Part shown: positions 10,169 to 40,053 of the stretch, one piece after another
Numbering within the stretch: position 1 is the stretch's first letter
How the letters are laid out: each line of letters begins with the position of its first letter
DNA from: Desulfobulbaceae bacterium
GTDB lineage: Bacteria; Desulfobacterota; Desulfobulbia; Desulfobulbales; Desulfobulbaceae
Length of the DNA stretch: 43,447 nucleotides
NCBI GenBank assembly: GCA_011389815.1
Contig: JAABTP010000018.1
Span: 1-43,447 of the forward strand
Reading direction: 5' to 3'
Notes under the pieces: model-generated
Told to the model about the DNA's origin: nothing
The model's input: only the letters and a program-made list of their open reading frames with translations
The model's database searches: none
Made by a program: the position numbers and the translations under genes

Positions 10169-10513
10169 ATGAAAAAACTACACATAACGATTTTTTGGGC
10201 AAGCTTAATATCCCTTTTTTTTCTCTTTAGCACCAGTACAGTTTACGCAGAAGAATGTGCGAAGGCCATTATCAAGAAAGTGGGGGTTTCGCCTACTGAA
10301 ACAGTAGACGCAACCCCATATTTAGTCCGTTTAGACTGTGAGGATCAGGACGAAGCTTGGTCTGGGGTAATTCCTTTTTATATAGGCACTGACCTTGGTG
10401 ATTCAGGTTTAGCTACACTTCTAACATCCTATTCGTTGGGTAAATCCCTATGGGTTGAAGTTGGGGGTATAACACCTGGTTCATTAGTCACCGTTCTTTT
10501 TGTTAATGAGTGA
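10169..10513 (+). CDS. Small secreted protein of unknown function
   Basis: 114 residues with GAGGAGG ideally placed before the ATG. Residues 1-27 are a clear Sec signal peptide (KK, a long hydrophobic core, then VYA before EEC). The mature protein of about 87 residues has two cysteines (one at its second or third position, one in RLDCEDQ), so a disulfide is possible, and the rest is predicted beta-rich. No family is recognised. The stop overlaps the start of the downstream gene by 8 bases (10506-10513), so the two are probably co-translated and functionally paired. AT-rich composition sets this pair apart from the polysaccharide genes on the left. Confidence 0.75.
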   Translation: MKKLHITIFWASLISLFFLFSTSTVYAEECAKAIIKKVGVSPTETVDATPYLVRLDCEDQDEAWSGVIPFYIGTDLGDSGLATLLTSYSLGKSLWVEVGGITPGSLVTVLFVNE

Positions 10514-11492
10514 TCTAATCCGAAAATGCGCCTCATCTGTTTTTTTTAGAGGAGGCGCAAATATATTTTTCAAAGGAATTTTTTGTACGCTCATTACCGT
10601 TAGCCTATTGACTATTGGCCCCCTTTTTGAGGCTTTAGCTGAAGAAAAAGCTGACGTGGGATTACATTCAAGTGAGTCGTGGTTTGAACAAAAAATGAAC
10701 CTTGATTGTAATGGTCGTGCCGTTGAAGAGGTTTTGAAGGAAGTTGCATCCTTTTTTAAAACCAAAATTATTTACCAGAGCAGAATGGCTAAGGTGCCAA
10801 TTCATTGCAGCTACTTGAGTGTAACAGTGGAGGAAATTTTAAGGAGGCTATTCAAAGATCAAAATAACACCATACTACTTGGGCATGCCCCAGAGCGAAA
10901 GATCATTGTCCAAGTGTTTGGAGAGACAAAGTATAATATTGTTTCTAGTGATGGTTCTACAGGAACAGAAATTATTCCTTTTTTACCAAATATGACCAAT
11001 GAAGATCTGGCTAGGTTGCATAAAGAACAGCTCAGGTTATACAAAAAGGAACTGGCTAATCCCGATGCGATAATTCCAGGTGTTGGAATTACAAGACAAG
11101 ATCTCGCTACATTGCATAAAGAACAGCTCAGGTTATACAAAAAGGAACTGGCTAATCCTGAAGCGATAATTCCAGGAGTTGGAATTACAAGAGAAGAGCT
11201 GCGGGTTTTGCATCAAAATCAAATTCAGCAATATGAAATGCTAAAAAATGATCCTGATCAAATAATTCCAGGAACAAATATAACTCGACAACAACTACAG
11301 GAACTTCACCAAAAACAGTTAAAACTTTACGAGCAGAGCAAAAATGATCAAGATGAGCTGGATCCTTTTACGGGTTTAACTCGATCAGAACTCAAGAAGT
11401 TACACGAACAGCAAATTAGACGCTCTGATGACAGTGCGGACGGAAGAAGAGTAACGGGGCAAAAAAACGAATCTGCAAACATGTCGGAATAA
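10506..11492 (+). CDS. Secreted/anchored protein with STN-like domain and 32-residue tandem repeats
   Basis: 328 residues from ATG 10506, preferred over TTG 10500. A basic N-terminus and hydrophobic stretch at about 22-45 form a long signal peptide or signal anchor. Residues ~55-140 resemble the short N-terminal domain (STN) of secretins and TonB receptors: an AVEEVL helix, then SVTVEEILRRLF, then a strand ending in IIVQVFG. From residue 163 a 32-residue unit repeats, beginning (I/M)T(R/N)..L..LH and carrying IIPG; four full copies and one partial copy are present. The C-terminus is hydrophilic. An STN domain suggests a periplasmic site next to an outer-membrane or cell-wall structure, but no secretin or receptor barrel is encoded here. 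No known family fits the whole protein. Confidence 0.7.
   Translation: MSDLIRKCASSVFFRGGANIFFKGIFCTLITVSLLTIGPLFEALAEEKADVGLHSSESWFEQKMNLDCNGRAVEEVLKEVASFFKTKIIYQSRMAKVPIHCSYLSVTVEEILRRLFKDQNNTILLGHAPERKIIVQVFGETKYNIVSSDGSTGTEIIPFLPNMTNEDLARLHKEQLRLYKKELANPDAIIPGVGITRQDLATLHKEQLRLYKKELANPEAIIPGVGITREELRVLHQNQIQQYEMLKNDPDQIIPGTNITRQQLQELHQKQLKLYEQSKNDQDELDPFTGLTRSELKKLHEQQIRRSDDSADGRRVTGQKNESANMSE
10992..11440 (+). repeat. 96-bp in-frame tandem repeat (32-residue protein repeat), about 4.7 copies
   Basis: Units start at 10992, 11088, 11184, 11280 and 11376, exactly 96 bases apart. Units 1 and 2 are almost identical at the DNA level (for example the block reading HKEQLRLYKKELANP is conserved), while units 3-5 have diverged. 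This gradient indicates a recent duplication at the 5' end of an older array. Confidence 0.85.
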
Positions 11493-26127: not shown

Positions 26128-27201
26128 ATGTTGAAAAATGAAAATTCTGTTGAAGTTGTGATTTACGGTGCCGGGTCCATAGGTAACCATATGGCACATG
26201 CTTGCCGTAACAAGGATTGGCATGTGACCATGGTGGACCCAGATTCGGTTGCACTTGAAAGAACCCGCAGGGAGATATATCCATCTCGGTACGGTCAGTG
26301 GGACGAGAGTATAGACCTGGTATTTCCTGATGATGTGGATGGTACAGCCGATCTGGTGATCATTGGCACGCCGCCTGATTTGCATATGGAAATTGCAAGC
26401 GCGGTTTTACGGGGGCAGCCACCACAGGTGATGTTGATAGAAAAGCCTTTGTGTACGCCCGATCTAGACGGATATGAGGAGGTCGCTGCGCTCGTAAAAA
26501 AAACGGGTACAATTGTTTTGACTGGTTATAATCATGTTGTGACCAAAAACACAAAGAAAGCAGAACAAATCTTGACTTCACATGATTTTGGAAAGCCACA
26601 AACGATCATGGTTCGTTGGCTTGAGCACTGGGGTGGGATTTTTGGGGCTCATCCCTGGCTGAGTGGACCGTCAGATAGCTATCTCGGATACTCCGTGCGG
26701 GGCGGTGGTGCTTGCGGAGAACATTCTCACGGCATCAATCTATTTCAGCATTTTGCACGTTTTTTAGGGCAAGGAGATATTAAAAAGGTATCGTGCATGA
26801 TGAGTGAGGTAGAAGATGGTGCTGCGCAATACGACAGGGTCAGCTCGTTGAATGTGCAAACGGACAGTGGCATGACTGGATTGGTTGTTCAGGATGTGGT
26901 GACCGAACCAGCAGTTAAGATGCTACGCATTCAGTTTGAAAAAGGGTACTTGGAATGGTATGCGAGCTATGACGCTGACCACGACGCAGTGCTTTGGCAA
27001 TGTGAGGGAAAACAGGCTGAAGCATATTTAATTCCTCGTGAGCGTCCCGATGATTTCGTGGGGGAAATTGATGAAGTCGAGCGGATACTACAAGGAAGCA
27101 GGACAGGCGGTGCCATTTCCCTTGAAGCTGGATATCAGACCATGAGAGTGATTGGGGCGGCATATTCCTCGCACCGTTCCGGTCAGACCGTCGAACTATA
27201 A
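26128..27201 (+). CDS. Gfo/Idh/MocA family oxidoreductase
   Basis: 357 residues. The Rossmann motif IYGAGSIGNHMA lies at 12-23, EKPL at 105-108 and a GGACGEHSHGIN segment near 192 carries the catalytic-type histidines. AAGGAGCAGTGGA stands directly before the ATG. It precedes the NeuB-type synthase by 35 bases, and similar oxidoreductases occur beside legionaminic/pseudaminic-type genes (PtmF-like), so it may act on a nonulosonate precursor. The reaction is inferred from location. It is unrelated in layout to the fused oxidoreductase at the start of the window. Confidence 0.85.
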   Translation: MLKNENSVEVVIYGAGSIGNHMAHACRNKDWHVTMVDPDSVALERTRREIYPSRYGQWDESIDLVFPDDVDGTADLVIIGTPPDLHMEIASAVLRGQPPQVMLIEKPLCTPDLDGYEEVAALVKKTGTIVLTGYNHVVTKNTKKAEQILTSHDFGKPQTIMVRWLEHWGGIFGAHPWLSGPSDSYLGYSVRGGGACGEHSHGINLFQHFARFLGQGDIKKVSCMMSEVEDGAAQYDRVSSLNVQTDSGMTGLVVQDVVTEPAVKMLRIQFEKGYLEWYASYDADHDAVLWQCEGKQAEAYLIPRERPDDFVGEIDEVERILQGSRTGGAISLEAGYQTMRVIGAAYSSHRSGQTVEL

Positions 27202-27236: not shown

Positions 27237-28751
27237 ATGAAGAATTTTGATTTTAACAACCTTTATATTCTTGATCTTGCTAATAATCATCAAGGGGATG
27301 TTTTGCATGGGCTGAATATTATTGAGGGATGTGCCGGAGCGGTAAAGTCCTGTGGTGTGCGTGCGACGGTGAAATTTCAGTTTCGCCAGCTTGAAACCTT
27401 CATCCATCCTGATTTCCAGTCTCGGAAAGATTTGCCCCATATTCCGCGTTTCATGGAAACAGCACTTAGCAAGGAACAGTTTTCCAAAATGGCTGTTGCG
27501 GTGAAAGATGGGGGAATGATTACCATGGCGACCCCCTTTGACGAGGAGTCAGTTGATGTCATTGAGGAATTGGAACTTGATGTGATTAAGATTGCCAGTT
27601 GTTCCGCTACAGATTATCCGTTACTGAAACGGGTGGTTCGTGCGCGGCGGCCGATAGTCGCTTCTACGGCCGGACTAAGTATCGGAAAAATTGATCGACT
27701 GATCAATTTTCTTGAAACACATGAGGCTGAGTTTGCCATCATGCACTGTGTAGCTCTTTACCCTACAGCCAATGATCGCTTAAATTTGAATCAGATTTCA
27801 TATCTTCGCCAACGATACCAAGGGGTTCCTGTAGGTTTTTCCACGCATGAGGAACCTGAAAATATGAATGCCGTGCAGATAGCGGCGGCAAAAGGTGCGC
27901 TATTGTTTGAGCGTCATGTGGGACTAAATACCGATAAATATAAGCTCAACGCCTATTCTTCAACTCCAGACCAAATCAAACGATGGATACAGGCATCTCT
28001 TGAGGCGCAGACAATTTGCGGGGGAGAGGGAAGGGGACCAGCCTCACCCGCAGAGAATGTGTCGCTTCGTTCTCTTATGCGAGGGGTTTACGCAAAGGAT
28101 TCCCTAAAAGCAGGAGATGTAATCAGCCGTGAGAATGTATTTTTTGCAATGCCGTTGCAGGACAATCAGATGACTTCTGGTGATTGGCACTCAGGAATGA
28201 CGGCTGATAGAGATTACCTATCAGGTGAGGCTTTGCAAGAACAGATATCCACCTTCCGCCCGACGCCTGAAAGTATGATTTTTCAGATTATGCTGCAAGT
28301 AAAAGGTATGCTGCGTGAAGCGCAGGTACCTGTAGGGCAAGGAATGCCCGTAGAATTATCGCATCATTATGGTCTTGATCGTTTCCGTGAATTCGGCTGC
28401 ACGATTGTTGATTGCGTGAACCGCTCTTATTGTAAAAAATTGCTAGTAATGCTTCCGCGACAAAAACATCCCTATCACTACCATGCAAAAAAAGAAGAAA
28501 CATTCCAGTTATTGCATGGAGACTTAGAAATTTGTCTTGATGGGCATGTAAAGAAGCTGGAATTGGGCGAGACCGTTTTGGTGGAACCGGGAATGTGGCA
28601 TAAATTTCACACACTGGATGGTGCTATCATGGAAGAAATTTCCTCGACCCACTACAATGATGACTCGTTTTATGATGATGAACTGATTGCTAAAATATCT
28701 AGGGAACACAGAAAAACCGTCCTAGAAATGCAACTGATTAATAGTTGGTGA
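27237..28751 (+). CDS. NeuB-type nonulosonate synthase with SAF domain and fused C-terminal cupin
   Basis: 504 residues in three parts. Residues 1-260 are the NeuB TIM barrel, with LANNHQGD (14-21), IKIAS near 117-121, MHCVALYPT, FSTHEEP (201-207) and FERHVGL (224-230). Residues ~278-342 are the SAF (antifreeze-like) domain with LKAGDVISRENV. Residues ~370-490 are an added cupin, with HYH at 414-416, E421 and PGMWH ending at H455, matching a metal-binding site; it resembles D-lyxose-isomerase-like cupins. NeuB enzymes condense PEP with a mannose- or ManNAc-type sugar to give a nine-carbon keto acid. The ordinary family length is about 340-350, so the cupin is an extension. GGAGAAA is the ribosome binding site. 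Confidence 0.88.
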   Translation: MKNFDFNNLYILDLANNHQGDVLHGLNIIEGCAGAVKSCGVRATVKFQFRQLETFIHPDFQSRKDLPHIPRFMETALSKEQFSKMAVAVKDGGMITMATPFDEESVDVIEELELDVIKIASCSATDYPLLKRVVRARRPIVASTAGLSIGKIDRLINFLETHEAEFAIMHCVALYPTANDRLNLNQISYLRQRYQGVPVGFSTHEEPENMNAVQIAAAKGALLFERHVGLNTDKYKLNAYSSTPDQIKRWIQASLEAQTICGGEGRGPASPAENVSLRSLMRGVYAKDSLKAGDVISRENVFFAMPLQDNQMTSGDWHSGMTADRDYLSGEALQEQISTFRPTPESMIFQIMLQVKGMLREAQVPVGQGMPVELSHHYGLDRFREFGCTIVDCVNRSYCKKLLVMLPRQKHPYHYHAKKEETFQLLHGDLEICLDGHVKKLELGETVLVEPGMWHKFHTLDGAIMEEISSTHYNDDSFYDDELIAKISREHRKTVLEMQLINSW

Positions 28752-28756
28752 TTGCA

Positions 28757-29362
28757 ATGCGTTATCGTGTTGTGGTGTTTGATTATGACGGTACGCTGGT
28801 GATGTCTAATGACATCAAGCGTGATGCTTATTTTCGTGCTATACCAGAGTATGGAAATATTTTAGACACGGTTTTGCGAATGAATCCAGGGGACACGAGG
28901 CGAGAGATAATTCGTAAAGTGCTGCTATCCATAGACCCCGATTGGGCAATGGGCGAAGAATTATCATCTCGTATTGAGGAAGTTGCTGAAAGATATGATA
29001 TTATTGCGACCAAAGGGGCTTCTGAGTGTCCAGAACGATCAGGCGCAACAGCTTGTTTGAAGCGGCTGTCAGAACATGTGCCCTTGTATTTGTTGTCTGC
29101 AACACAGCAAGATAGTTTGGAAAGAATTGTTGATTACAGGGAATGGCGCAGTTTTTTTCAACGAGTCGTTGGTGTTACTGTCTCCGAAAAAGCAGGCATG
29201 TTGAAATCGTTTGCAGTTGAGCAGTATGTTCATATGGATGATATTCTGATGGTTGGTGATAGTGATTTTGATCGGGACGCAGCATGCAGTGCAGGTGCAG
29301 CCTATTTCCATATGGCATCTGGTAACACCATGCAGGATCTCATCCGTTTCCTGAATTCTTAG
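28757..29362 (+). CDS. HAD-superfamily phosphatase
   Basis: 201 residues from ATG 28757; in-frame TTG 28745 and GTG 28748 overlap the upstream stop and are possible starts. FDYDGTL (8-14) provides the nucleophile D9 and acid D11, LSAT is motif II, and ILMVGDSDFDRDAA is the C-terminal metal-binding motif. The cap is small and helical. Between NeuB and NeuA it is the right kind of enzyme to remove the 9-phosphate of a nonulosonic acid 9-phosphate, as in Kdn or mammalian-type sialic acid synthesis. This suggests a phosphorylated six-carbon substrate for the synthase (inference). Confidence 0.85.
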   Translation: MRYRVVVFDYDGTLVMSNDIKRDAYFRAIPEYGNILDTVLRMNPGDTRREIIRKVLLSIDPDWAMGEELSSRIEEVAERYDIIATKGASECPERSGATACLKRLSEHVPLYLLSATQQDSLERIVDYREWRSFFQRVVGVTVSEKAGMLKSFAVEQYVHMDDILMVGDSDFDRDAACSAGAAYFHMASGNTMQDLIRFLNS

Positions 29363-29536: not shown

Positions 29537-30265
29537 ATGTATCATGATAAACGCATTTTAGCCGTTGTGCCTGCCCGCGGTGGTAGTAAGGGCATTCCGT
29601 TGAAGAATATTCATCTACTGGCAGGTAAACCATTAATTGCCTATACTGGTGATGTTTTAAAACATCTGCCAGAAGTGGATCGCGCCGTTGTGTCAACGGA
29701 TCATGATGGTATTGCTGATTTGGCAGAGCAAAACGGGATTCCAGCACCGTTTCGACGACCACCAGATCTGAGTGGAGATCGCGTTGCTGACTGGGATGTT
29801 TTGTTGCATGCTCTGCAAGCCATGGAGGCAATTGACAGTTGTATCTACGACATTGTTCTGATGCTGCAACCTACCTGCCCGCTTAGGACGGCGGAGCATG
29901 TGCGGAAGACTTTTGAAAAGCTTATTGAAGGACACTTCGATTCTGTTTGGACGTTAAGCCCGACGGACAGCAAGGCTCATCCTCTTAAACAGTTAATTCT
30001 TCAAGATGGGAACATTGATTTCTATGATGCGCGCGGGCGAAATATTATTTCGCGTCAACAGTTGGAGCCTGTATACCATCGGAATGGCGCTTCATATGCA
30101 ATCACACGATCCTGTATTTTAGAACAGCGCTCAATAATGGGGCAAAATTGTGGTTTTGTGGTCATCTACGATGCTCTTGCCAATATCGACACGCTGGATG
30201 ATATTCGCTACGCAGAATTCATAATGATAAGTGAACATCACGATCAGAGTAGTAATGCGTGCTGA
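29537..30265 (+). CDS. neuA: CMP-nonulosonate (acylneuraminate) cytidylyltransferase
   Basis: 242 residues. VPARGGSKGIPLKN (11-24) is the CTP-binding signature, MLQPTCPLR and YHRNGASYAITR are the further family motifs, and NIDTLDDI near the C-terminus carries the metal-binding aspartates. It activates the keto sugar acid as its CMP derivative for transfer by a glycosyltransferase. It completes the synthase, phosphatase, activation series begun at 27237. Whether the substrate is sialic acid, Kdn or a legionaminic-type sugar is not decided. The gene overlaps the next one by 11 bases. Confidence 0.92.
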   Translation: MYHDKRILAVVPARGGSKGIPLKNIHLLAGKPLIAYTGDVLKHLPEVDRAVVSTDHDGIADLAEQNGIPAPFRRPPDLSGDRVADWDVLLHALQAMEAIDSCIYDIVLMLQPTCPLRTAEHVRKTFEKLIEGHFDSVWTLSPTDSKAHPLKQLILQDGNIDFYDARGRNIISRQQLEPVYHRNGASYAITRSCILEQRSIMGQNCGFVVIYDALANIDTLDDIRYAEFIMISEHHDQSSNAC

Positions 30266-31610
30266 TATGGATTTGATAGTTCCTATAGAGACCAAGGTGC
30301 GCGAGTTTCACGCCAAGGCATATTTAGCGACAGTTGCAGCAGAGCGTGGGTTCAAGGTTTGCATTGGAGATGCTCGTTCGATAAGGCGGCGTCTTGGCTG
30401 GTTGCCTGTTGGTGCGTATTTTCTGGACAAGTCTGTGGTTCCGAACCGAACTGATCTTTTTCGTTACTATCGTGCGCTTGGACTAAGAGTCGTGGCGTGG
30501 TGTGAAGAAGGTTTTTCATTAGTTGATAAGGATGCCTATCTCCGGCATCGAATTAACCCAGATGCACTGTCTCAGACCGAGTCGTTCTTTACATGGGGTC
30601 CATACCAATCCTCAATAATCAAAAACCGTTATCCAGAATTAGCAGGGCGAATTGCAGATACAGGTAATCCTCGAATCGACATTCTTCATTTACCGGCAAG
30701 GAGCGTCTTTAATGAGCAGGCAAAGCTGCTGCGGCAACAATATCCACATATGATCCTGATAAACACGAACTTTTCTATGTGTAATCATAAGAAAGGACGC
30801 ATGGGATACATAGAACTGCTCAAAAGTGGAGGCAAGATCTCGACAACGGAAGATGAGGAATTTGCAAAAGGGTGGATGAAGCATAAAGAAAATCTTTTTA
30901 TAGCTTTTAAAAAGCTTGTATTCACATTGAGTCAGGAATTTGGTGACCGGAAAATTATAATTAGGCCTCATCCGTCAGAAAATCACGATGTATATCGTGA
31001 TTTATATAAAGATGTAATAAACGTTGATGTCATACACGAAGGCAATGTCATTCCGTGGCTTATGGCAGCCGACATTGTGATTCATAATGGCTGCACCACT
31101 GCGGTTGAGGCTTGTTTGCTTGATCGCCCTGTGCTTGCTTATCGTCCATTTGTCTCGGATCGATTCGATATTGATTTCCCTAACCAAGTGAGTGTTGATG
31201 TATCAACAGAGGAAGATGTCGTCTCATGCATTCATTCAAACAGCCAAATTGAGCGTGCTGAGCGTGATGTAACGCTCCAAAGATATATCCATAAGGTCAA
31301 AGACAGTCATGCAGATGCAATTGTTGATCTTCTGTATCAAAAGTGGGAAAGCGGCACTGAATTCTCTATGCCCCTGCGTTTGTTGATGGAGATGAGACGA
31401 CTTGCCTTTCGACTTCGCATGTGGCGAGCATGTTCTTACGATTCAGAGTCAATTTATGAAAAACAGAAGTTTGGAAAATTGGAACGAAAGGAGTTGTTAG
31501 AAGTGGTGAACCATTTTTCTTCAAATCGCAAACCAAAACATTCTTATGATGTGCATCAGATTTGGAAAAATTGCTTTGTCGTGAAAAAGGCAACCGAATA
31601 TGAGTCTTAA
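30255..31610 (+). CDS. Surface carbohydrate biosynthesis protein (GT-B-like)
   Basis: 451 residues from ATG 30255; GTG 30231 and ATG 30267 are alternatives, and none has a strong ribosome binding site. Characteristic segments are IVPIETKVREFHAK at the N-terminus, GNPRIDIL near 136, IIIRPHPSEN near 234 and HNGCTTAVEA near 277. These match the surf_polysacc-type proteins found next to NeuA/NeuB genes. The fold resembles CDP-glycerol glycerophosphotransferase/GT-B enzymes, so it may transfer the CMP-activated nonulosonic acid; that is an inference from family location. Overlaps the next gene by 11 bases. Confidence 0.78.
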   Translation: MRADMDLIVPIETKVREFHAKAYLATVAAERGFKVCIGDARSIRRRLGWLPVGAYFLDKSVVPNRTDLFRYYRALGLRVVAWCEEGFSLVDKDAYLRHRINPDALSQTESFFTWGPYQSSIIKNRYPELAGRIADTGNPRIDILHLPARSVFNEQAKLLRQQYPHMILINTNFSMCNHKKGRMGYIELLKSGGKISTTEDEEFAKGWMKHKENLFIAFKKLVFTLSQEFGDRKIIIRPHPSENHDVYRDLYKDVINVDVIHEGNVIPWLMAADIVIHNGCTTAVEACLLDRPVLAYRPFVSDRFDIDFPNQVSVDVSTEEDVVSCIHSNSQIERAERDVTLQRYIHKVKDSHADAIVDLLYQKWESGTEFSMPLRLLMEMRRLAFRLRMWRACSYDSESIYEKQKFGKLERKELLEVVNHFSSNRKPKHSYDVHQIWKNCFVVKKATEYES

Positions 31611-33004: not shown

Positions 33005-34000
33005 ATGCTGAATTTTGATGCAGATGAAAATCAGCCGCCTCAAGTTGTTTTTTTAACATATATAAGCCGTTCCGGTTCGACTTTTTTAGCTCAGATCCTT
33101 GATTCCTTGCATGAGGTTTGTGTCGGTTTAGAAACCAGGCTGGATGATGGTTGGATTCGTGGTGAACATGTTTGTTTGCATTCAGAATCAGAGATTCGTG
33201 CTTATCTGAACCAGATGGAGAAAGATGCCAAGTTTCGCCAATGGGGCGTGTCTTCTGATGAGATATGGCAGAGACTTTCTATGCATCCTCCACCAATATA
33301 TTTTGGGGATATACTGCAAGCAGCGTTACTTGAATATGCAGGAAAAACATCTCCGAAGGTGTTGGTCCATAAGTGTGGTCATTATATTTCTTGCGTTTCC
33401 AAAATCAGGCAGGAAATTCCGAGGGCAAAATTTATATTTGTCGATAGAGACCCGAGAGCCATATATTGTTCACAAAAACGAAGTATTGACAGTTTAACCC
33501 GACAACCCATGCAGAGTGATATTGTAGATTTTGCACTAGAATACAAGAAACTTCAGCGGTCTTTGCAATCTGTCAGTCAAGACCCGTATGTCATGGTTGT
33601 TCAGTATGAAGAAATTATCGCAAGCGATCCGAGAGCAATACAACAAAAGTTTGCCCAATTTCTTGAAGTAGATTCATTCTCTGTCAATACATCCAATTAC
33701 TATTCCACCATACCTGAAGCGCAGAAACATTTGCATCGGCGAGTTGAATCGGGAGTTCCTGACAGGACGAGAGTGTCGGCATGGAAGAATGAGTTGCCCG
33801 TCAGTGAGATTCTTTTTCTTGGCTGGGCGTTGCGTAACTGGTTGAAAGCAAAAAAGTATGAAAATTGTAAAATACCCATTGATAAGATTAAGCTCACAGA
33901 GTTGTTTGCTCTTTTTAGACACCTTTCGCGATATATTTATGAAGCACATTTCGGTAGGCATTTTAGAAATAAGATGAGAGATTGCCTATGGAAAAGGTGA
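33005..34000 (+). CDS. Sulfotransferase family protein
   Basis: 331 residues. SRSGSTF (21-27) matches the 5'-phosphosulfate-binding loop and VDRDPRAIYCSQKRS (146-160) the 3'-phosphate-binding segment, with Arg and Ser in the expected places, of PAPS-dependent sulfotransferases. It would move sulfate from PAPS to a hydroxyl or amino group of a glycan in the cytoplasm. AGGAAG before the ATG. Its location between two GT4 genes in a glycan locus makes a sulfated polysaccharide or lipid-linked intermediate plausible (inference). No PAPS synthesis gene is present, but those are usually elsewhere. Confidence 0.78.
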   Translation: MLNFDADENQPPQVVFLTYISRSGSTFLAQILDSLHEVCVGLETRLDDGWIRGEHVCLHSESEIRAYLNQMEKDAKFRQWGVSSDEIWQRLSMHPPPIYFGDILQAALLEYAGKTSPKVLVHKCGHYISCVSKIRQEIPRAKFIFVDRDPRAIYCSQKRSIDSLTRQPMQSDIVDFALEYKKLQRSLQSVSQDPYVMVVQYEEIIASDPRAIQQKFAQFLEVDSFSVNTSNYYSTIPEAQKHLHRRVESGVPDRTRVSAWKNELPVSEILFLGWALRNWLKAKKYENCKIPIDKIKLTELFALFRHLSRYIYEAHFGRHFRNKMRDCLWKR

Positions 34001-38988: not shown

Positions 38989-40053
38989 ATGGCAAATTCT
39001 CTTACCGGCTCAGTCGGTGAAAGCGGTAAAAACCAACCCGATGATGTTCGTGCAGTCTATGCATTGTTTAACAAGATCCTTTCGGTGCAGCTGGAAGTGA
39101 GTGATGTCTGCTCTGTTGAGCTGATTCGGGCAATCAGAGAGTTTCAGCAGGGATTCATGTCCCGTCCTGATGGCAGAATAGATGTGGGTGGACGAACCTG
39201 GAAAAAGCTCACCGCTACTGCTGAGGCACCGGAAACAGCAATTAGTGGATCAGTAGGGGAGGGCGGCCAGAATCGCTCCCGTGATGTCCGTATTATCTAT
39301 GCCCTGTTTAATGCAATACTCTCCAGGCCCCTGGATGTCAGCGATCAATGCACAGACGAGTTAATTCAGGCGATTAAGGATCTGCAAAAGGGCTTTATGT
39401 CCCGTCCTGACGGCAGGATTGATGTGGGCGGGCGCACCTGGAGACGGCTGACCACGCCAGCCGGAGGAGCCGGCCAATCTGTGCTCCTGAGCTTTGATGA
39501 TGGTCCGGCCCCAACAAAGGCCTTATTCTCCATTCTGGATATCCTGGATCGTTATGCTATCAAGGCGGAATTCTATGTTCTTGGTCAGGAAGTGGATAGC
39601 CAGCCAGCAGCAGCAAAGGAAATCGCAGAGCGAGGTCATAAAGTTCAAAACCATACCTATACCCACCCTAATCTGGCTCAGGCCAGCAAGAGCACTGTTC
39701 GCAGGGAACTGAGCAAAACCCAGGAGAGCATTAAAAAAGCCACCGGCTCCACGCCTACCAAAATTCGCCCTCCTTACGGTGCAGGCGGCTGGCGACCATA
39801 CGATTGGGAGCTTATTACCGTGGCAAACGAACTTTCCCTGACCATTCAGAACTGGGATATTGATACAGAAGACTGGAAATCTCCCCAGGGAGTCGGTCCC
39901 AGCAAACGATCTATGATTGAACGTCAGCTTGCCCGCAGGCAGAATCAGACCGAGCTCAATGTGCTCATGCATGTCTTACCAGGAACAGCTGACGACCTGG
40001 GAGATTTTATTGAGCAGCTTAAACAATGGGGATTCAGCTTTGCCAGGCCGTAA
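38989..40053 (+). CDS. Polysaccharide deacetylase (CE4/NodB) with duplicated N-terminal domain
   Basis: 354 residues. Residues 7-73 and 87-153 are two copies of one domain offset by exactly 80 residues, resembling peptidoglycan-binding modules (AIREFQQGFMSRPDGRIDVGG). Residues ~165-354 are a CE4 domain with all five motifs: SFDDG (D170, D171), HTYTH (H222, H226), RPPYG near 260-264, DIDTEDW (290-296) and LMH (326-328). CE4 enzymes remove N-acetyl groups from glycans with a divalent metal. There is no signal peptide, which is odd for a wall-binding deacetylase. AGGAGA precedes the ATG. Confidence 0.9.
   Translation: MANSLTGSVGESGKNQPDDVRAVYALFNKILSVQLEVSDVCSVELIRAIREFQQGFMSRPDGRIDVGGRTWKKLTATAEAPETAISGSVGEGGQNRSRDVRIIYALFNAILSRPLDVSDQCTDELIQAIKDLQKGFMSRPDGRIDVGGRTWRRLTTPAGGAGQSVLLSFDDGPAPTKALFSILDILDRYAIKAEFYVLGQEVDSQPAAAKEIAERGHKVQNHTYTHPNLAQASKSTVRRELSKTQESIKKATGSTPTKIRPPYGAGGWRPYDWELITVANELSLTIQNWDIDTEDWKSPQGVGPSKRSMIERQLARRQNQTELNVLMHVLPGTADDLGDFIEQLKQWGFSFARP

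Follow-up and report, generated by a model that had tools for sequence, protein, structure and literature searches.

A NeuB-type synthase fused to a D-lyxose isomerase-like cupin, and a possible isomerase-fed route to non-acetylated sialic acids

The DNA considered here is a stretch of 43,447 nucleotides (the window) from Desulfobulbaceae bacterium (GenBank assembly GCA_011389815.1, contig JAABTP010000018.1, positions 1 to 43,447), and the gene in question lies on its forward strand: a single reading frame in which a sialic acid synthase of the NeuB type is continued at its C-terminus by a cupin. A first-pass annotation of the letters had described complete TIM-barrel and SAF domains followed by some 150 residues of metal-binding cupin, reminiscent of D-lyxose and mannose isomerases, and had supposed that one protein might both prepare a sugar and condense it with phosphoenolpyruvate (PEP). 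The parts of the gene are given here with counts from the 90 bacterial fusions described below; pLDDT is the predicted local distance difference test score.

27237..28751, + strand: NeuB-SAF-cupin fusion gene, ATG start, 504 amino acids (aa) and then a stop; full-length model with mean pLDDT 93.0
27261..28022, + strand: NeuB TIM barrel, about residues 9-262; PF03102 at 37-262, aligned to Neisseria meningitidis NeuB
28083..28238, + strand: SAF domain, about residues 283-334; weak PF08666 match, alignment to N. meningitidis NeuB, fold match to 3g8r
28269..28748, + strand: C-terminal cupin of D-lyxose isomerase type, residues 345-504; PF07385, model pLDDT 92.7, Z 19.3 to 7nzo
28467..28505, + strand: metal motif 1, residues 411-423 (H414, H416, K419, E421); H414 in 87/90, the others in 90/90
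28587..28601, + strand: metal motif 2, residues 451-455 (PGMWH); H455 in 90/90

The domain make-up was as first described. Pfam recognises the NeuB domain at residues 37-262 (E 3e-41, 141.8 bits, gathering score 22.1). The SAF domain is weak by sequence (PF08666 at 14.2 bits, cut-off 21), but is covered by the confident full-length model, built from an alignment of 90 family members, and by the solved relative 3g8r. Residues 345-504 alone match Cupin_2 at 39.8 bits and the D-lyxose isomerase family PF07385 at 34.6 bits (cut-off 20.8); the whole protein scores 30.3 bits against PF07385. The xylose-isomerase-like family PF01261, found in other NeuB fusions discussed below, gave no Pfam match in the window protein up to E 0.1; its C-terminal domain is the cupin. 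The residues singled out at the start (H414, Y415, H416, E421 and H455) are all present, and the remark that ordinary NeuB proteins lack this part is true of the second NeuB of the same genome (348 aa) and of the other NeuBs examined, by length or by Pfam.

One way to judge whether such a gene is more than an accident of assembly is to ask how often it recurs. A scan of 84,980 species genomes with the family alignment as query gave at least 568 loci encoding relatives (a single-sequence scan of genome contigs gave none); the best 80 of these at least 568, which match over almost their full length and so under-sample distant members, were joined to the window and to 15 loci from further genome searches. 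The full fusion lies in one open frame in 95 of these 96 bacterial loci, the lone miss (L043) being cut by a contig end; origin by chance or artefact is ruled out. Removal of five copies identical over the last 300 residues left 90 non-redundant bacterial fusions. Record titles place relatives in Alpha-, Gamma- and Deltaproteobacteria, Nitrospirae, Verrucomicrobia, Planctomycetota, Bacteroidetes, Marinimicrobia, Uhrbacteria and others, most of them as metagenome bins whose individual taxon names may be wrong; cultured carriers include Desulfofustis glycolicus (L076) and Niveispirillum irakense (L107). Contigs labelled viral in IMG/VR also carry it: 57 of 62 loci (L173-L234; the 57 fall in the range L173-L230) have the full fusion, within larger sugar-gene clusters, and one flank protein matches a phage late sigma factor family. 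Searches of plasmid and phage records returned NeuB matches only, covering at most 66% of the query. The fusion is thus a conserved family in many bacterial groups and on viral contigs, and is not peculiar to this genome.

Among 395 genomes of the same phylum, cupin matches occur in 13 (the window's included), at 14 places, all in open frames of fusion size; no standalone cupin of the same type (E 1e-8) was found in these or in 289 genomes of the class of Niveispirillum, where there are five further places in five genomes, and each of the 14 and five places lies in an open frame of 502-559 aa. One candidate for a standalone cupin, L004, was dropped, its frame running to the contig end. Another locus, L169, from 148 same-phylum genomes, encodes a short PF07385 relative in a 175-aa frame. 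A close NeuB (E 1e-40) is present in six of 369 genomes from the class to which genome G441 belongs; four of the six are fused and two lack the cupin. A search of open-access literature by title or abstract start found no paper on a NeuB-cupin fusion among the matches listed, though domain databases may show the architecture; one paper considered as a report of it was set aside, as the neuB and cupin protein that it describes are separate genes (PMC9684190). The design is widespread and apparently unstudied.

In fold the cupin comes nearest to D-lyxose isomerases. The closest solved chains by sequence are the D-lyxose isomerases 7nzo and 2y0o; the cupin model, built from the same alignment of 90, superposes on 7nzo with a VIA-align Z of 19.3 (1.6 Å over 143 residues), followed by 2y0o (18.6), the E. 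coli D-lyxose isomerase (17.3), L-ribose isomerases (15.7) and cupin phosphomannose isomerases (14.7), and D-lyxose isomerases also come first in Foldseek. The match begins at the helix before the barrel, and therefore takes in a whole isomerase domain, not merely a generic cupin barrel.

The active site largely follows the fold. The Thermofilum D-lyxose isomerase is described as contacting its sugar through K62, H75, H77, K86, E88, H143, E156 and D163 (PMC8378251). When mapped by sequence alignment to the solved chain (chain position minus 24), the first seven correspond to K401, H414, H416, K419, E421, H455 and E467 of the window protein, and all seven are invariant in the 90 bacterial fusions save H414 (87 H, 3 Q); in 47 distinct viral fusions the exceptions are K401 (46/47) and H414 (34 H, 13 Q). 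The four metal ligands of the D-lyxose isomerase family (H, H, E, H) are H414, H416, E421 and H455. Of the Thermofilum residues counted as essential (K86, E156 and D163), the first two thus have invariant counterparts in K419 and E467. Mean pairwise identity is 0.59 in the cupin and 0.56 in the TIM barrel, so that the cupin is no less conserved. The resemblance first noticed by eye thus held up: the isolated cupin exceeds the PF07385 cut-off, its predicted structure fits D-lyxose isomerases best, and there is agreement in the metal ligands and in most of the sugar pocket; the metal site was not missing, nor was the match confined to a sensor family. It is very probable, judging from these residues, that the cupin has an isomerase-type active site.

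Variation at the first metal ligand has a pattern of its own. Besides the 13 viral copies, the glutamine at position 414 is found in L052, L053 and L056; all 13, with L052 and L056, lie near a thiamine diphosphate (ThDP) enzyme, and the flank of L053 is too short to tell. A glutamine metal ligand is known in phosphomannose isomerase.

The synthase half departs from the classical enzymes where the sugar is bound. Its PEP and metal residues, located by alignment to N. meningitidis NeuB, are conserved (K46, Q48, K118, S121, H204 and H227, invariant in the 90). The place of R314 of the N. meningitidis enzyme is taken by M305, and reads M in 76, I in 9 and F in 5 of the bacterial fusions, never arginine; E134 is replaced by S or A, D247 by N, and N184 by A, S or G. 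R314 lies in the SAF-like domain, which forms a cap over the partner subunit, and is described as interacting with N-acetylmannosamine (ManNAc), probably to position the N-acetyl group of that sugar; the R314A mutant is inactive, the R314K mutant active (PMC6795526). Scores against the NCBIfam equivalogs for N-acetylneuraminate synthase (TIGR03569: 138.1 bits, cut-off 399.65) and pseudaminic acid synthase (TIGR03586: 115.5 bits, cut-off 340.25) fall short. The synthase half is predicted not to be a ManNAc enzyme of the usual kind.

The same arginine is missing from a second kind of fusion. In a first sample of NeuBs, six had long frames (626-779 aa), all with PF01261, a xylose-isomerase-like TIM barrel, after the SAF domain; these read S or G at the R314 place, whereas unfused full-length NeuBs read R (22/23) or K (1/23). 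A second sample of 46, from the class of G441 (30 loci by highest score and 16 regions picked by hand, nine for long frames and seven ordinary), contained three reading S, A or T, the other 43 having R (41) or K (2); Pfam, run on the eight longest, found PF01261 in exactly the three without arginine and not in the five that keep it. Pooled, R or K stands at this place in 0/9 PF01261 NeuBs and in 66/66 others (R 63, K 3), Pfam having been run on the six long NeuBs of the first sample and the eight longest of the second, and the rest taken as too short for an extra domain; two partial NeuBs were left out (L092_7, which has S at position 123, and L115_5). Counts were made per sample; a joint trimmed alignment lost the SAF domain in some rows (gaps at position 305 in 7/66 unfused and 4/9 PF01261 NeuBs). 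Two further positions set both fused kinds apart from these 66: R50, in 90/90 cupin fusions, 9/9 PF01261 fusions and 0/66 other NeuBs; and E205, next to a metal ligand, in 90/90 and 7/9, with T or S in 62/66 others. Position 123 separates the two kinds: the 90 bacterial cupin fusions have S or A there and the viral ones S or C, and an acidic residue stands in the PF01261 fusions, in three cupin-less relatives and in 64/66 others.

Fusions of other kinds were met in passing. The PF01261 proteins of L005, L006, L019 and L265 have an extra N-terminal CBS domain. A NeuB at L266:1066-2913 carries a C-terminal CTP_transf_3 domain, that is, it unites synthase and cytidine monophosphate (CMP) transferase, and the R314 arginine is retained.

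In a tree of 88 rows (quick method, midpoint root), the NeuB-cupin proteins, the viral copies and the three cupin-less relatives group together with strong support and are set off by a long branch, with viral and bacterial copies interleaved; the PF01261 fusions are placed with the classical side. The cupin-less relatives nest inside the fusion clade, so that the cupin was probably lost there. As a marker, the association between loss of R314 and possession of an isomerase domain is strong; as a count of independent events it is weak.

The genes around the fusion suggest where its product goes. In the window they are these (CTP is cytidine triphosphate):

26128..27201, + strand: dehydrogenase of Gfo/Idh/MocA type (PF01408, 43.9 bits), 35 bases upstream of the fusion
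28745..29362, + strand: HAD-type hydrolase, probable phosphatase (PF13419, 46.3 bits), overlapping the fusion by 7 bases, TTG start taken
29537..30265, + strand: CTP transferase of the CMP-sialic acid synthetase kind (PF02348, 69.5 bits)
30231..31610, + strand: TIGR04396 surface carbohydrate biosynthesis protein (345.4 bits, cut-off 125)

The CTP transferase scores 129.9 bits as PseF (under the cut-off of 205.7) and 44.9 bits as KdsB, the type for 3-deoxy-D-manno-octulosonic acid (Kdo); its solved relatives are synthetases of CMP-N-acetylneuraminic acid (CMP-Neu5Ac). The Gfo/Idh and HAD neighbours found no match in the PDB by sequence at E 1e-4. By tblastn, in the 52 of the 90 loci flanked on each side by 4 kb or more, a Gfo/Idh gene lies within 4 kb of the fusion in 44, a CTP transferase in 39, a HAD gene in 37, a TIGR04396 gene in 17 and a ThDP enzyme in four; 29 loci have all of the first three, and 44 have two or more of them. 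The window has the complete set of Gfo/Idh, HAD, CTP transferase and TIGR04396 genes. A NeuC-like epimerase was found within 4 kb in none of the 52 (eight farther off), with NeuC probes that all came from a single five-member cluster of neighbours and did not extend to supply genes of PseG type; the window genome has three NeuC-family matches, none above cut-off.

Elsewhere in the window, by eye, a sulfotransferase-like gene lies in the same surface-sugar region (33005-34000); a protein at 10500-11492 has an imperfect repeat in its second half (LHKEQLRLYKKELANP..IIPGVGITR and variants); and one at 38989-40053 has two similar N-terminal repeats ahead of a polysaccharide-deacetylase-like domain.

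A second setting is found in a minority of loci. In L051, L052, L054 and L056 (of the 52), and in L158, an acetolactate-synthase-like ThDP enzyme lies close to the fusion, and no Gfo/Idh gene or CTP transferase was found. L056 also has RfbF, RfbG and RfbH above their NCBIfam cut-offs and a C-methyltransferase; L054 has a KdsC-type phosphatase above cut-off, and L051 one of NT5C type, also above cut-off, next to the fusion. Among the 62 viral loci the ThDP enzyme is present in 23 and a CTP transferase in 25, many weak; a small HAD-like protein, with weak family matches, is present in 34, at 100 bases or less from the fusion in 14. The varied HAD-type families near the fusion argue for dephosphorylation at some step. 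Each of the three cupin-less relatives (L155:5535-6644, L156:1014-2156 and L227:5989-7074) also has a ThDP enzyme near it; L156 holds in addition a 3-dehydroquinate-synthase-like gene.

From the domain make-up, the fold, the conservation of both active sites and the cassette, we infer catalysis by the cupin, a type of sugar, an order of steps and some hand-over between the two sites. The best reading, preferred on balance and drawn from sequence and predicted structure, supposes a two-step, isomerase-fed synthase for non-acetylated acids like KDN (2-keto-3-deoxynononic acid). That is, the cupin would act as a metal-dependent aldose-ketose isomerase of the D-lyxose/D-mannose isomerase type, turning a fructose-like ketose into an aldose with the mannose configuration at C2, probably via a cis-enediol; the NeuB domain would condense that aldose with PEP to a 3-deoxy-2-ulosonic acid without N-acetyl, most simply KDN or a close relative; the neighbouring HAD enzyme would remove phosphate, before or after condensation; the neighbouring cytidylyltransferase would make the CMP sugar for a surface polysaccharide; and the usual route through a UDP (uridine diphosphate)-sugar 2-epimerase (NeuC) would be bypassed. 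That the cupin feeds NeuB is probable; that KDN itself is the product is a more tentative claim, for which the chances fall somewhat short of even. A precedent for a non-acetylated product comes from Serratia, where a NeuB with another isomerase fold goes with mainly KDN.

Several observations weigh against this isomerase-fed reading. Characterised D-lyxose isomerases act on free sugars, whereas the HAD neighbour and known KDN routes suggest phosphorylated ones. The Gfo/Idh enzyme, the commonest neighbour, has no place in a plain KDN route; its presence suggests a modified sugar. The ThDP-type clusters have the fusion without a CTP transferase. The cupin scores only 20.1 bits, against a cut-off of 350, with the NCBIfam equivalog for D-lyxose/D-mannose isomerase (NF051472), and a six-frame PF07385 search of the 148 same-phylum genomes missed the window's own copy at E 0.001 and detected six other fusions only at E 2e-4 to 8e-4. 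The eighth Thermofilum contact, D163, whose counterpart is described as essential in the E. coli enzyme, its replacement abolishing activity (PMC8378251), falls in an ungapped alignment on N474, where just 12 of the 90 have D; D476 does not vary among the 90 but pairs with D163 only when a gap is introduced, and may, at a guess, stand in for it. Finally, the markers of the synthase half prove less than their counts suggest. All 34 unfused NeuBs lie on one side of a single branch of the tree, so that a single change may account for the arginine and the marker columns alike; and L155, L156 and L227, with I at the R314 place and R50 and E205 kept, share the marks without the cupin, so that the marks follow lineage and need no isomerase domain in the same protein.

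The alternative that survives best, possible though less likely than the reading above, moves the same two steps onto phosphorylated sugars: the cupin would resemble phosphomannose isomerase (fructose 6-phosphate to mannose 6-phosphate), NeuB would give KDN 9-phosphate and the HAD enzyme would remove the phosphate. The frequent HAD gene at 4 kb or less (37/52), the other HAD-type genes (KdsC type in L054, NT5C type in L051, the small protein of 34/62 viral loci) and R50, which is invariant in the 90 fusions, absent from the 66 NeuBs without isomerase domain and could bind phosphate, are in keeping with it, as is the use of mannose 6-phosphate by known KDN routes and KDN 9-phosphate synthases (PMC6200933). 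Against it, D-lyxose isomerases match the cupin better than cupin phosphomannose isomerases do (Z 19.3 versus 14.7), and no phosphate pocket was identified.

It is unlikely that the cupin is catalytic elsewhere in the pathway, for example by epimerising or isomerising the ulosonic acid or the product of the Gfo/Idh enzyme. In favour of this, the Gfo/Idh enzyme (44/52 loci) has no role in the scheme preferred here, and H376, K400, R396 and E466 are invariant or almost so in bacterial fusions and different in the isomerases compared; but the sugar-binding residues are those of aldose-ketose isomerases, and fusion to a PEP-condensing enzyme points to a step before or at condensation.

Less likely still is a pentose substrate, by which the cupin would make, for example, D-lyxose from xylulose (or the phosphate) and NeuB a Kdo-like octulosonic acid. 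D-lyxose is reported as the best substrate of the closest characterised relative (PMC8378251), the CTP transferase does match KdsB, and L054 has its KdsC-type phosphatase; the transferase is, however, nearer the nonulosonic types (PseF, and CMP-Neu5Ac synthetases in the PDB), and the fused precedent in Serratia is described as yielding a nine-carbon sugar (PMC9000132). That the cupin has no catalytic role, and senses a metal or a sugar or serves oligomerisation, is very improbable: many cupins are not isomerases and three relatives manage without one, but the catalytic residues are near-invariant in 137 sequences and the best fold matches are enzymes.

A more speculative proposal, also improbable, takes in the ThDP-type clusters. 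Throughout the family the fusion would provide a self-supplying route to a keto-deoxy acid with no nucleotide-sugar intermediate, the cupin handing the open-chain aldose to NeuB; in bacterial and viral clusters of this type the acid would not be CMP-activated but would serve as acyl donor, being decarboxylated by the acetolactate-synthase-like enzyme and its remainder joined to the CDP (cytidine diphosphate)-4-keto-3,6-dideoxyhexose supplied by RfbF, RfbG and RfbH, to give a branched long-chain sugar by an undescribed route.

If the isomerase-fed reading is true, one protein may supply the sugar that it condenses, and synthases for non-acetylated sugars would be recognisable in a genome by a fused isomerase combined with loss of R314 and presence of R50 and E205. 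Such a sign may help to identify KDN producers from their genomes. In granular sludges KDN is described as the second most abundant nonulosonic acid (low in one of four), and the authors state that synthases for Neu5Ac and KDN were not distinguishable by annotation (PMC10483923). Two unrelated isomerase folds would then have been joined to NeuB, with viral contigs carrying one of the two designs.

Set beside known systems, the two halves have separate nearest kin. With the D-lyxose isomerases of Bacillus subtilis (2y0o), Thermofilum (7nzo, 7nzp and 7nzq) and E. coli (z5688; 3kmh and 3mpb), the cupin shares the whole-domain fold, all four metal ligands and residues equivalent to K401, K419 and E467; those enzymes are free-standing, whereas this one is fused to NeuB, and the segment before the barrel reads SHHYG here and D-F/Y-G there. 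The closest solved NeuB half is 3g8r of Chromobacterium violaceum (42% identity; TM-score 0.95 by its own length), a 'probable spore coat polysaccharide biosynthesis protein E', which aligns with the fusion L052 at E 5e-121 as far as residue 335 of 350, in a solved chain without a cupin. N. meningitidis NeuB (1xuu and relatives) shares the PEP and metal residues, but is about 22% identical by structure, has no cupin, and has R314, E134, N184 and D247 where the window family has replacements.

The nearest parallel to the whole protein is in Serratia marcescens, where a NeuB that carries a fused COG1082 sugar phosphate isomerase/epimerase domain is described beside neuA; neuB mutants have four-fold less sialic acid, restored by complementation, and the capsule has KDN and Neu5Ac at about 20:1, both gone when the capsule region is deleted (PMC9000132). 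Like the PF01261 fusions found here, and by its published description, this is a NeuB with a C-terminal isomerase-like domain. The PF01261 fusions share with the window family the loss of R314 and the presence of R50; this type differs in its TIM-barrel fold and, to judge from the PF01261 fusions, in tree position and in keeping an acidic residue at position 123. One NeuB with a fused isomerase, of another fold, was thus already published.

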